The position numbers and the translations under genes are program-made. Below are positions 13,778-49,642 of a stretch of 64,000 bases of DNA, one piece after another (within the stretch, counting starts at the first letter, position 1; the number at the start of each line of letters is the position of its first letter). The DNA is from Halanaeroarchaeum sp. HSR-CO (GTDB lineage Archaea; Halobacteriota; Halobacteria; Halobacteriales; Halobacteriaceae), in assembly GCF_024972755.1 (NCBI RefSeq), contig NZ_CP087724.1:2232001-2296000 (forward strand), given 5' to 3'. A model generated the notes under the pieces. That model made no database searches. It was not told the origin of the DNA and worked only from the letters and a program-made list of their open reading frames with translations.

Positions 13778-13918
13778 GGTAAAATGTCAGCTCGTGTGAA
13801 CTAAAACCTTTGCTTCGGATCGGCGATGGGGAGCGACACCGCTGCAAGGGGCCACTGGCATGGCGGTACGAACCCGACCGCCCACACCTTGAGTACCCCA
13901 CAGGGCCTACCGCGACGC

Positions 13919-14614: not shown

Positions 14615-15237
14615 TCGGTGGGTCAGCAACCTCCAATTTCGCTAGATTCCTCACGTGCCGCTTCGTCGCGGTACCCATTCCGCGCCGCGTGAACGACGTC
14701 GCGGCTCGTTTCGACCTATCCCGGGTTGAGTCACGCAACGTCCAAATTCCTCATCTGGACCGTATACCCCCACCGATTGTACAGCAGATGCCCAGCGACC
14801 GACGAAGCCGCCACCAACAACGAGTGCTGATTCTATCGTAGTGTGATGGGCTCAGGCTTCCACCGAACGAGACGGTTCACTCATCGCGAACGTAGTGAGC
14901 GATGAGGACGTTTTTGGTGTGCTCACCGAGCGTAGCTCGGTGGCACTACCAGACCGCGAAGCGGTCTGGCTTGCAGTCAGAAGCACCGCTTCTGACGACA
15001 TCCAGCAGAAGCTTCGCTTCTGCGCGAGAGATTTTTGCGAGATGGGGTCCCACAGCGAGCGCTAGAGAGCGAGGAAACCCATCTCGTAAAACGGTCCAAT
15101 GGGACCGTCGAAGCATCGCTTCGCGAAGCTTCTGGCTCCCACTTCTTCCTCACTACGTTCGTCAGAAGTGGGACCGTCGAAACGTCGCTACGCGACGTTT
15201 CTGGCTCCCATTTTCTCCTCACTTCGTTCGTCGAAAA
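14615..15237. other. gene-free region with hairpin array and tRNA-Pro 3'-end repeats
   Basis: About 620 bases without a gene I can support. Positions 14615-14880 show nothing distinctive. From 14881 to 15237 there is a chain of short inverted repeats and two tandem 69-bp units described separately. All of it lies in the 3' direction of the minus-strand tRNA-Pro gene. Confidence 0.7.
14881..15023. repeat. array of five short inverted repeats, four with trinucleotide loops
   Basis: Five successive hairpins: 14881-14905 (TCATCGC / GCGATGA around an 11-base loop), 14924-14942 (8-bp stem, GTA loop), 14949-14969 (9-bp stem, GAA loop), 14976-14996 (9-bp stem, ACC loop) and 15005-15023 (8-bp stem, TTC loop). 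The last four are perfect and are all closed by GC-NNN-GC. Stem sequences differ from one another, so this is a repeat of shape, not of sequence. Confidence 0.75.
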
Positions 15238-15249
15238 TGGGACCGTCGA
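15100..15249 (-). repeat. two tandem 69-bp units, each ending in a copy of the tRNA-Pro 3' end
   Basis: TGGGACCGTCGA (plus strand), the last 12 bases of tRNA-Pro(GGG) including the discriminator, recurs at 15238, 15169 and 15100, exactly 69 bases apart. Each unit also has a 9-bp inverted repeat (15207-15215 with 15233-15241; 15138-15146 with 15164-15172) and a 10-position hairpin with a 3-base loop (15179-15201, perfect; 15110-15132, one A-A mismatch). Between the units three stem changes in the first inverted repeat and one in the second are compensated. Confidence 0.8.
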
Positions 15250-15310
15250 GATTCGAACTCGAGTCCGACGGACCCCATCCGCCGAGGATACCAAGCTACC
15301 CCACGGTCCC
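15238..15310 (-). tRNA. tRNA-Pro (anticodon GGG)
   Basis: The minus strand folds as a full cloverleaf. The acceptor is GGGACCG/CGGTCCC with discriminator A. The D-arm contains AGCTTGGTA. The anticodon stem is GGCGG/CCGTC with loop ATGGGGT (anticodon GGG). The variable loop has 4 bases, and the T-arm is TCGAG-TTCGAAT-CTCGA. CCA is not encoded. No intron is seen. Confidence 0.93.
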
Positions 15311-15484: not shown

Positions 15485-16360
15485 CTACACCAGTACCCGT
15501 TCCAGGTCGACGACCAGTCCCTCGTCGGCGTCCGCGTCGCCAACCAGCCGGCCCAGGCAGACGGCGGCCCCGTTCGGGGTGTAACAGGCCACGAGACTGT
15601 CCTCGGGAGCGTCGTCCGCGTCGATGACGCCGGGGGCGTAGACCGGCGCGCCCTCGGCGACCTCTTCGGCGGCACTCGGCGCGATGGTCACGCTCGGGAT
15701 GTGTGTCAGCGCCCGCTCCGCGGGATGGACGACCTCGCGAAGCCACTCGTCGTCCCCGTCGTCTCGCCAGACGGCCAGGGCGTCGGCGAGGTCGTGCAGC
15801 GTGACCAGGTCGGTGTCGTCGAAGGGGTCGGTGCCGGTGCGGCGCAGGTCGCCCATGTGGGCGCCGGTCCCCAGCGCCAGCCCGACGTCGTGGCAAAGCT
15901 TCCGGACGTAGGTCCCGCTCTCACACCGGATGTCGAGCAGCGCCTGGCGATCTGCCACCTCGAGGACGTCGAGGTCGTGAATCGTCCGGGTGCGCAAGCG
16001 GCGTGCGACGGCGCTCTTCTTCGGGGGCTTCTGGTAGATCTCGCCCTCGAACTCGGCGACGACCGATTCCAGATCGGCCGGCGGGTCGTCGTGGAGTTCG
16101 AGGACGGCCACGTACGACTTCGCGCCTTCCAGGAGCGCGGGGACGAGGCGGGTTCCCGCACCGAGCAGGACCGGGAGACAGCCGGTGACCTTCGGGTCGA
16201 GCGTTCCGGCGTGAGCAGCCTTCTCGACGCCGACCGAGTCGCGGATCCAGGCCGAGACCTGGTGGGCCGACGGGCCGGGCGGTTTGTCGAGGTTGAGGAC
16301 GCCGAACTCGAGTAGCGCCTCGGGATCGCGGTCGTCCGGTGCGTCGCGAAGGTGTGGCAT
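15485..16360 (-). CDS. truB: tRNA/rRNA pseudouridine synthase, Cbf5/TruB family
   Basis: 291-residue archaeal Cbf5, the catalytic subunit of H/ACA RNPs and also a tRNA Psi55 synthase. Motifs: GVLNLDKPPGPSAHQVSAW, the catalytic Asp in HAGTLDPKVTGCLPV, and DIRCESGTYVRKLCHDVG. A PUA-like C-terminal domain begins near residue 215 (IPSVTIAPSAAEEVAEGAPV). It starts at MPHLRDAP, one base past the stop of cmk, so the two are an operon. Archaeal Cbf5 commonly sits next to cmk and adk. Confidence 0.92.
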   Translation of the reverse strand: MPHLRDAPDDRDPEALLEFGVLNLDKPPGPSAHQVSAWIRDSVGVEKAAHAGTLDPKVTGCLPVLLGAGTRLVPALLEGAKSYVAVLELHDDPPADLESVVAEFEGEIYQKPPKKSAVARRLRTRTIHDLDVLEVADRQALLDIRCESGTYVRKLCHDVGLALGTGAHMGDLRRTGTDPFDDTDLVTLHDLADALAVWRDDGDDEWLREVVHPAERALTHIPSVTIAPSAAEEVAEGAPVYAPGVIDADDAPEDSLVACYTPNGAAVCLGRLVGDADADEGLVVDLERVLV

Positions 16361-16361
16361 G

Positions 16362-16940
16362 TCAGAACTCGTAGTCCACGCCTTCGATGGGGAACGCGCC
16401 CTCGTCATCGTCGGGATCGTACTGCGCGACGGCCGTTCGAACGACCTCCATGACGCCCTCCGGCCCCCAGCGTGCGGTGTTCACGGAGAGGTCGTAGATG
16501 GAGCGATCGGAGAAGTCGATGTCGTAGTACCGGCGGTAGCGGACGACCTCGCTCTCTGCCCGGGCGTGGAGGGTACGTCGGGCCTCCTCGATCGGCGTGT
16601 TCTCGCGGTCGGCGACGCGGGCGGCCCGGACGTCCTCTGGGGCGTCCAGCCAGACCCGAATATCCGCGTAATCGCCGGCCATCCACCCGGAGAGTCGGGA
16701 TTCGAGCACGAGGTCGTCCCGCTCGCGGGCCGTCTGGCGCAGCCGTCGGTCGAGGTCGCGGTCGATCTGGTCGTCCTCCTCGGCGAGTTTGTTGAATTCG
16801 AGCGGCGTATAGTCTCGCTCGTCGGCGAGCGAGCGAAAGATGTCGCCCCCGGAGACGTGCTCGTAGCCGAGTTCCTCGGCGAGCGCCCGGGCAGCGGTGC
16901 TCTTGCCGCTACCGATGGGACCGGAGATGGTGATCAACAT
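16362..16940 (-). CDS. cmk: (d)CMP kinase
   Basis: 192-residue archaeal cytidylate kinase. Walker A is GPIGSGKST at residues 7-15. The CMP-binding region is [22 protein letters not shown], and the LID-like Arg-rich segment is [35 protein letters not shown]. It phosphorylates CMP/dCMP for nucleic acid synthesis. It is the third gene of adk - DUF106 - cmk - truB, with 71 bases to the upstream gene end. Confidence 0.9.
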
Positions 16941-49138: not shown

Positions 49139-49209
49139 GCGCTGGTAGTGTAGTGGTATCACGTGACCTTGCCATGGTCACAACCTGGGTTCAAATCCCA
49201 GCCAGCGCA
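49139..49209 (+). tRNA. tRNA-Gly (anticodon GCC)
   Basis: Complete cloverleaf: acceptor GCGCTGG/CCAGCGC with discriminator A, D-arm GTGTAGTGGTATCAC, anticodon stem TGACC/GGTCA with loop TTGCCAT (GCC), variable bases CAACC, and T-arm CTGGG-TTCAAAT-CCCAG. CCA is not encoded. Its 3' end is the origin of the tandem repeats that follow. Confidence 0.95.
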
Positions 49210-49642
49210 GTTCTGTCGAACCACATCCGCGAGCAATGGCTTTGCCATTGCGAGCAATGCTGGTGAGACGAAATCGCTCTGGGATTTGAACTCAGCAAGT
49301 CGCAGCTCCCGAGCGAAGCGAGGGTGACCGTCTGATTTCGGTTCAAATTCCGATAGACTCGCTTCGCTCGTCTATCGACGTCCCGTTCGCCAAGGGCTCA
49401 CGGGACTCCCAGCCAGCGCATTTCTGTCGAACCACATCCGCGAGCGTTGGCCATGCCAACGCGAGCTATCGGGGTGAGACGAAATCGCTCTGGGATTTGA
49501 ACCCTGCAAGTCGCAGCCCGCGCAACCGACCGGAGGGAGGTGAGCAGGACCGTCTTGCTCTGGTTCAAATTCCGATAGACTCGCTTCGCTCGTCTATCGA
49601 CGTCCCGTTCGCCAGGGGCTCACGGGACTCCCAGCCAGCGCA
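49197..49642 (+). repeat. two tandem 211/222-bp units ending in copies of the tRNA-Gly 3' end
   Basis: CCCAGCCAGCGCA, the last 13 bases of tRNA-Gly, recurs ending at 49209, 49420 and 49642. Between copies the units share long blocks: TTCTGTCGAACCACATCCGC after each of the first two ends, GACGAAATCGCTCTGGGATT, and GGTTCAAATTCCGATAGACT through the next 3' end. The middle 50 bases differ. Each unit has a copy of the T-arm in inverted orientation (49279-49291 and 49490-49504, the latter a 15-base exact match) and a degenerate direct copy. Three hairpins per unit are described separately. Confidence 0.88.
49233..49628 (+). repeat. hairpins inside the tRNA-Gly tail units
   Basis: Hairpin 1: 49233-49251 (GCAATGGC-TTT-GCCATTGC) and its counterpart 49444-49462 (GCGTTGGC-CAT-GCCAACGC); both are perfect, and the two differing positions of the stem are both compensated. 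Hairpin 2: 49351-49377 and 49573-49599 (CGATAGAC / GTCTATCG), identical. Hairpin 3: 49380-49406 and 49602-49628 (GTCCCGT / ACGGGAC), identical stems. The first has the same GC-NNN-GC closing as the hairpins beside tRNA-Pro. Confidence 0.8.

Follow-up and report, generated by a model that had tools for sequence, protein, structure and literature searches.

The tRNA-Pro(GGG) gene in the window (the stretch of 64,000 nucleotides analysed here) is followed by a two-unit tail that recopies the gene's own 3′ end. This tail is one case of a genome-wide and class-wide pattern, beyond what the original prediction from the same letters could show: tRNA tails are a class-wide feature of Halobacteria. Our conclusion is that the tails have a sense strand that is structured and under constraint, and we tentatively suggest, at a probability of about 0.4, that the tail belongs to a class of structured tRNA-gene 3′ extensions whose units provide fail-safe 3′-end formation on read-through transcripts.

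The tail of the tRNA-Pro(GGG) gene

In the window, truB stands upstream of tRNA-Pro(GGG), and both genes lie on the minus strand; the tail therefore goes from 15237 down to 15100 (Table 1). With the Rfam tRNA model the tRNA-Pro gene fell below the gathering score and was put into the gene set by hand. The original prediction had placed two 69-bp tandem units 3′ of the gene, and we recovered them as direct repeats at 15169-15237 and 15100-15168 that are 83% identical. It had also reported that the end of the tRNA recurs twice at a spacing of 69 bases, and a 14-mer containing this end does occur three times, 69 nt apart, with copy 1 differing at the first of the last 12 bases. Each unit consists of a first hairpin with a T-rich arm, a second hairpin and a copy of the last 11-12 bases of the tRNA, and the sense-strand fold of each unit has two hairpins, in line with the two inverted repeats seen earlier. 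When a single unit was folded alone, the first hairpin formed, and GGGA then paired with the UCCC of the copy to close around the second hairpin like an acceptor stem on a long arm; in unit 1 this predicted acceptor-like stem joins copy 1 to GGGA at 15206-15209. The tip of hairpin L1 in unit 1 has two tandem G·A steps and a GAA loop, and its palindrome covers 15207-15241 when the flanking CCCA/TGGG is counted.

Table 1. Features of the tRNA-Pro(GGG) locus and the second tRNA gene of the window
Feature	Position	Strand	Basis and remarks
truB	15485-16408	minus	open reading frame, name given from sequence
tRNA-Pro(GGG) gene	15238-15310	minus	ARAGORN; its 3′ end CGACGGTCCCA is the recopied sequence
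Unit 1 of the tail, 69 nt	15169-15237	minus	direct repeat and fold
Hairpin L1, unit 1	15211-15237	minus	TTTTC start immediately 3′ of the tRNA; sequence and fold
Hairpin B, unit 1	15179-15201	minus	fold
Copy 1 of the last 12 tRNA bases	15169-15180	minus	first base different, TCGACGGTCCCA in common
Unit 2 of the tail, 69 nt	15100-15168	minus	direct repeat and fold
Hairpin L1, unit 2	15142-15168	minus	CTTCT start; three compensated pair changes relative to unit 1; fold
Hairpin B, unit 2	15110-15132	minus	one compensated and one uncompensated change; fold
Copy 2 of the last 12 tRNA bases	15100-15111	minus	direct repeat
tRNA-Gly(GCC), the other tRNA of the window	49139-49209	plus	

Five predicted pairs differ between the two units and four of them are compensated. 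In the first stem all three changes (T-A to C-G, T-A to C-G and C-G to T-A) are matched on the other arm, while in the second stem one change is matched (A-T to G-C) and one is broken (G-C to T-T); these are the same five pairs, with the same outcome, that had been put forward as covariation. The predicted fold energy of the whole tail was -61.2 kcal/mol for the sense strand and -55.2 kcal/mol for the antisense strand. The sister species has a single unit behind tRNA-Pro, with a decayed end. As to conservation among relatives, on which the original prediction had also touched, the outcome is mixed: the number of units varies, while the pairing of the arms is mostly retained.

tRNA genes recopy their own 3′ ends

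We scored a copy when the last 26 nt of a gene were found again within 300 bp at a local score of at least 12. The gene set of the window genome comprised 44 tRNA genes (43 found with RF00005, plus tRNA-Pro); 26 of the 44 had their own 3′ end copied downstream and one of the 44 upstream, so that the repeat behind tRNA-Pro is more than a chance match. No end of another gene was a better fit in 25 of these 26 tails, and the mean score in the same tails was 14.6 for the gene's own 3′ end versus 8.1 for the 3′ ends of other genes. In four further genomes, for which the best 30 of 42, 46, 50 and 44 tRNA loci by score were taken, a downstream own copy was found in 16/30, 21/30, 17/29 and 20/30. Pooled over the five genomes, 100 of 163 tRNA genes had their own 3′ end copied downstream and 6 upstream, and 63 of the 163 were without a tail at this threshold. 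By eye, 3 of the 17 copies counted in the Haloferax genome are tandem tRNA genes and no tails. The region behind tRNA-Gly(GCC) (about 49210-49590, plus strand) also contains a tail, in which an inverted T-arm and a hairpin accompany an incomplete copy of the end of this gene; hairpins with GAGCGAAGCGAG tips then recur on both strands.

Individual loci are patchy. A survey of tRNA-Pro started from 432 TruB relatives, of which 80 loci from named genomes were kept, 74 of them with tRNA-Pro downstream. At the chosen threshold a recopied end was present at 10 of these 74 loci, compared to 2 of 74 in the reversed control, and no recopied end was found behind tRNA-Pro in Halobacterium salinarum (L112); in a set of 30 tRNA-Pro loci there were 7 with a recopied end. 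When two sister species were compared gene pair by gene pair, both genes had a tail in 10 pairs, neither in 7 and only one in 8, a concordance that is not significant (p = 0.10). Many tail-less tRNA-Pro genes (L017, L020, L025, L112, L131 and others) have a short GTGGTCGGCGTGAG.. start right behind the gene. This start resembles the edge of an integrated element, and integration may displace tails there. At two loci the intact gene is preceded by a piece of tRNA-Pro that spans the anticodon arm through the 3′ end, about 1 kb upstream in L004 (at 462-502) and about 50 nt upstream in L010 (at 1405-1447).

The tail signature is nearly confined to Halobacteria

As a signature of the tails we used an inverted T-arm (X′) followed after 24 to 54 nt by a direct copy (X). 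This signature was present in 216 of 242 Halobacteria genomes, and the reversed-pattern control gave 0 in all of them. Within a sample of the phylum, the window's order had it in 49 of its 53 genomes (counted by hand); 3 of 241 other genomes had it, each with a single match, one of which is by eye a tandem tRNA gene. We then checked 40 signature sites that were picked by hand, one per genome; since the sites were selected by the signature, the results tell what the signature marks and not how frequent tails are. At 37 of the 40 sites the same strand had an Rfam tRNA within 450 nt upstream; none was found in L336, L365 and L370. In 35 of the 37 tails the gene's own 3′ end ranked top of 37. In the window genome all 14 distinct signature sites adjoin tRNA genes, 13 of them downstream and in sense orientation. 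The signature at G000:C1:443072-443115 lies ~215 nt upstream of a tRNA gene; it may go with another tRNA gene or be part of an old tail. We rejected a free mobile repeat, because the window genome gave no signature site at a distance from tRNA genes, and on the same 14 sites also a REP-like dispersed repeat.

A common unit plan

The tails inspected in the window genome typically follow one plan: the tRNA, a hairpin (L1) that mostly opens with a T-rich tract, an inverted T-arm X′ (GGATTTGAACC-like), a second hairpin (L2), and the direct copy X, which spans the T-loop to the discriminator base and is often 22 nt long and exact. The plan was also found as tandem repeats, with a unit spacing of about 125 nt (10th-90th percentile 93-194 nt). 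The units behind tRNA-Pro are a short form in which another hairpin takes the place of the T-loop part. The L2 hairpins group into a small number of recurrent families whose inner parts are constant (AGTCGCAGC..GACCGTCT and AGTCGCGCGC..GAGCACGTCT) and which are common to different tRNAs and genera; the constant parts might be a protein-binding site.

The sense strand is favoured

Many hairpins have a tip of the form C-GA-NN-loop-NN-GA-G, whose two G·A steps can stack, as sheared G·A pairs, on that strand only. Within 250 nt downstream of tRNA genes, we counted 175 such tips in sense and 36 in antisense orientation, and in the independent set of 37 tails 48 and 6. Upstream of tRNA genes the tips were also biased towards sense (41 versus 18), which means that such hairpins are not restricted to tRNA tails. 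By eye, the G·A steps lack the three-base bulge of a kink-turn, and we rejected this reading of the tips. Over the first 140 nt, the sense strand was predicted to be more stable than the antisense strand in 74 of 99 tailed genes (p = 1.3e-7) versus 29 of 64 tail-less genes; this excess was clear in four genomes and absent in the sister species (12/20), and in the independent set the sense fold was more stable in 33 of 37 tails. Where the inverted arm departs from a perfect complement, G·U-type departures (96/810) exceeded the mirror A·C type (46/867; p = 1.7e-6, for places that share ancestry and are not independent). Over all stems the mismatches did not differ significantly (78 G·T versus 63 A·C).

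The arms of L2, which played no part in choosing the units, paired with their own partners over a mean run of 4.90, compared to 3.58 for permuted partners (sd 0.09, n = 115). In small groups of L2 hairpins of the same length, two-sided changes were present in 6/16, 12/20, 4/20 and 8/20 pairs. Because the tips and the predicted stability favour the sense strand and the arms covary, the tail probably works as RNA, which is the simplest bearer of these features; the same strand as displaced single-stranded DNA is a possible alternative. The original prediction had named a structured RNA and a palindromic DNA element side by side. The strand asymmetry, the covarying arms and the wobble-type departures favour the former as far as sequence can tell, while the latter is a poorer fit, given that the hairpins keep G·A mismatches which only the sense strand can use.

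Fail-safe 3′-end formation as a tentative function

We infer that the units act on read-through pre-tRNA transcripts. With a strong tRNA promoter and a leaky first T-tract, every unit would offer an extra stable hairpin, a tRNA-like 3′ end and often a T-tract. RNA polymerase would stop, or 3′ processing would cut, at the hairpin, the copied end or the T-tract of a unit, and the units would thereby insulate the downstream gene and keep the 3′ end of the tRNA free. The inverted T-arm would pair with the copy and would thus be prevented from unfolding the tRNA, and new units would be born at the tRNA and decay outwards.

T-rich tracts are enriched 3′ of the tRNA and 3′ of the copies: a run of at least four T within 14 nt followed copies in 53 of 163 cases, tailed tRNAs in 24 of 94 and random tail positions in 27 of 815. 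According to the available text of PMC7237163, in Haloferax volcanii T5C stops 95% of transcripts and one tested hairpin stops 59%, and a tRNA-Pro gene of this species has two mapped RNA 3′ ends downstream. A gene on the same strand started within 150 nt of 18 of 63 tail-less versus 2 of 100 tailed tRNA genes, a comparison that is weak and partly trivial because the tail itself takes up the space measured. On the T runs, the Haloferax volcanii termination figures and the neighbourhood counts, we consider fail-safe termination and 3′ processing the most likely role. The downstream position of the own-end copies, the sense bias of tips and folds, the pairing of the L2 arms and the gene-specific inverted arm also speak for this reading. 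We count against it that the tails are patchy, that the G·T and A·C mismatches of stems at large do not differ significantly, that sense-biased tips also occur upstream of tRNA genes, and that T4 runs stand behind just a third of the copies. Moreover, a terminator can do its work without repeating the end of its gene, and termination thus leaves the own-end copying unexplained; the copy could be a pairing partner for the inverted arm, a processing signal or a mutational habit used by selection.

Behaviour of the copies and rival explanations

A serious rival to a fail-safe function is that the tails are a by-product of local copying, a reading that we regard as possible while leaning against it. 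At the 3′ ends of highly transcribed tRNA genes, stalled forks, slipped pairing and template switching by fold-back would duplicate the end directly and inversely, quasi-palindrome correction would match the arms, and old units would drift with no selected function. The divergence of the copies with distance is as this reading expects: the mean number of mismatches in 22 nt was 1.7 in first copies (n = 99), 2.6 in second (n = 60) and 4.0 in third copies (n = 21), with few and mixed values past the third. Of 60 genes with several copies, 29 had the better match to the tRNA in the first copy and 11 in the last. The copies also track their own tRNA. In three sister-species pairs with a tail in both species (L034/L247, L043/L259 and L045/L256) the tRNA ends differ, and in either species the first copy matches its own tRNA in full, with 82, 55 and 64% identity in the intervening segments. 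In two further pairs with differing ends, the copies had 0 and 1 mismatches (L052/L273), or one species had an exact copy and the other a copy with five mismatches (L036/L246). The patchiness of the tails (10/74 tRNA-Pro loci) likewise fits local copying. On the other hand, local copying does not lead one to expect the sense-strand bias in tips and stability, the recurrence of L2 families across different tRNAs and genera, or the restriction to one class. Nor would G·A and other stem mismatches persist, as templated correction would remove them; quasi-palindrome correction, which the original prediction had allowed as a source of the matched changes, falls short by itself for this reason and may still contribute.

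We also considered self-renewing arrays, in which a dedicated process would take the final 22 nt of every tRNA gene, copy them in direct and inverse orientation, add a unit beside the gene and keep the copies identical to it while the hairpins turn over, so that the tail would be a gene-specific RNA device guarding tRNA 3′-end formation. We hold this more elaborate view to be doubtful.

The extent of the copies raises the question of integration. In 91 of 164 copies the identity with the tRNA, counted from its 3′ end, extends over exactly 21-24 nt, and we therefore take the usual copy to begin at the T-loop; two copies that reach the 55-nt limit are whole tandem genes. A duplicated integration target would look the same, and tRNA genes are the usual sites of archaeal integration, with an attachment site of just 14 nt in SNJ2 (available text of PMC8371274). 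The tails could then be attachment-site scars or miniature integrative elements, in which integrases acting at tRNA ends left direct repeats around a short palindromic element. This is unlikely, since units of about 70-190 nt have no room for an integrase gene, the signature sites of the window genome keep strictly to tRNA genes (14/14, 13 downstream and sense), and RNA-like strand bias and covariation would be unexpected. Virus contigs are also nearly free of units: of the 62 that matched two patterns, a single one (L319, at 13866-13908) resembles a haloarchaeal tail unit by eye, and the remaining matches are AT-rich chance, tandem tRNAs or other palindromes. We accordingly rejected spread by viruses.

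Finally, the inverted T-arm could be part of a switch, pairing with the 3′ half of the tRNA and delaying its folding or maturation until it is released by the copy; alternatively, a unit set free could act as an antisense RNA on tRNA precursors. In four of the five genomes (p = 0.0005, 0.007, 0.0005 and 0.003) the inverted arm is a better fit to the T-stem of its own gene than to permuted ones, and the excess of wobble-type departures (p 1.7e-6) also speaks for such pairing; in the sister species the own T-stem was no better match than permuted ones (p = 0.22). At sites that distinguish the copy from the tRNA, the inverted arm agrees equally often with one and the other (71 versus 70, neither in 30). 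This decides for neither of them; we count it against a switch or small RNA, and we regard this explanation, too, as improbable.

Relation to known elements

At the gathering score, no Rfam 15 family covered the tRNA-Pro tail, the only matches in the window being tRNA-Gly and an L4 leader, and eight tail loci compared with Rfam 15 gave matches to tRNA only. A copied tRNA gene or pseudogene was rejected, as most of the tRNA body is not duplicated and 91/164 copies comprise just 21-24 nt. The tails do have the direct repeat of the tRNA 3′ end that marks an attachment pair, and share with attL/attR the stretch from the T-loop to the last base. They differ by having units of 69 to about 190 nt with no element or integrase between the copies, an inverted T-arm and hairpins, and tandem arrays; with copies 69 nt apart here and a general unit spacing of 93-194 nt (10th-90th percentile), we rejected an attachment pair with an integrase element between. 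REP/REPIN-type intergenic repeats are imperfect palindromes with shared tips. The tails are alike in this, and such palindromes also occur elsewhere in haloarchaeal intergenic DNA, but in the window genome the tail signature stands beside tRNA genes only and copies each gene's own sequence. As an analogy only, CRISPR arrays also alternate short repeats with segments and decay away from one end, whereas in the tails the repeat is the tRNA's own end and the segments look like recurring hairpin families. Archaeal T-stretch terminators (T5C in Haloferax volcanii) may resemble the tails in the T-rich tract, often then C, behind the tRNA and often behind the copies, and in hairpins of a kind able to stop transcription (available text of PMC7237163). 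Known terminators, however, require no copy of the gene end and are not known as gene-specific unit arrays.

The open-access literature searched held no description of the tails, although an older mention is possible in haloarchaeal tRNA-gene papers of the 1980s or in a small-RNA paper of 2012; they are not described in the available text of PMC3119063, PMC9897764, PMC7237163, PMC3956466, PMC3432209, PMC2864571, PMC2584109, PMC2841640 or PMC8371274, and the tip motif as printed letters gave eight matches in open-access papers, all unrelated. An apparently undescribed structured element accompanies over half of the examined tRNA genes, in a class that includes the genetic model genus Haloferax. 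The tails bear on the ending and maturation of archaeal tRNA transcripts and supply many study cases of covariation and concerted copying. They can also mislead tRNA gene finding and searches for integration sites that rely on recopied tRNA ends, and their role is open to immediate testing in Haloferax volcanii.

The L4 leader in the window is L4-Archaeoglobi (RF03135, 48483-48582, minus strand; 76.6 bits, cut-off 34.5), and its host lies outside the named group. Past the tRNA-Pro tail, at 14880-15091, there are more hairpins, including a 19-nt inverted repeat with T-run/A-run arms (15033-15091). A similar element, TTTTTACTCGTCGGGTT..AACCC..TCCTCGCAAAAA, was found 3′ of many tRNA genes in other haloarchaea; it has its G·A steps on the opposite strand, as might be the case for a terminator of the other direction.
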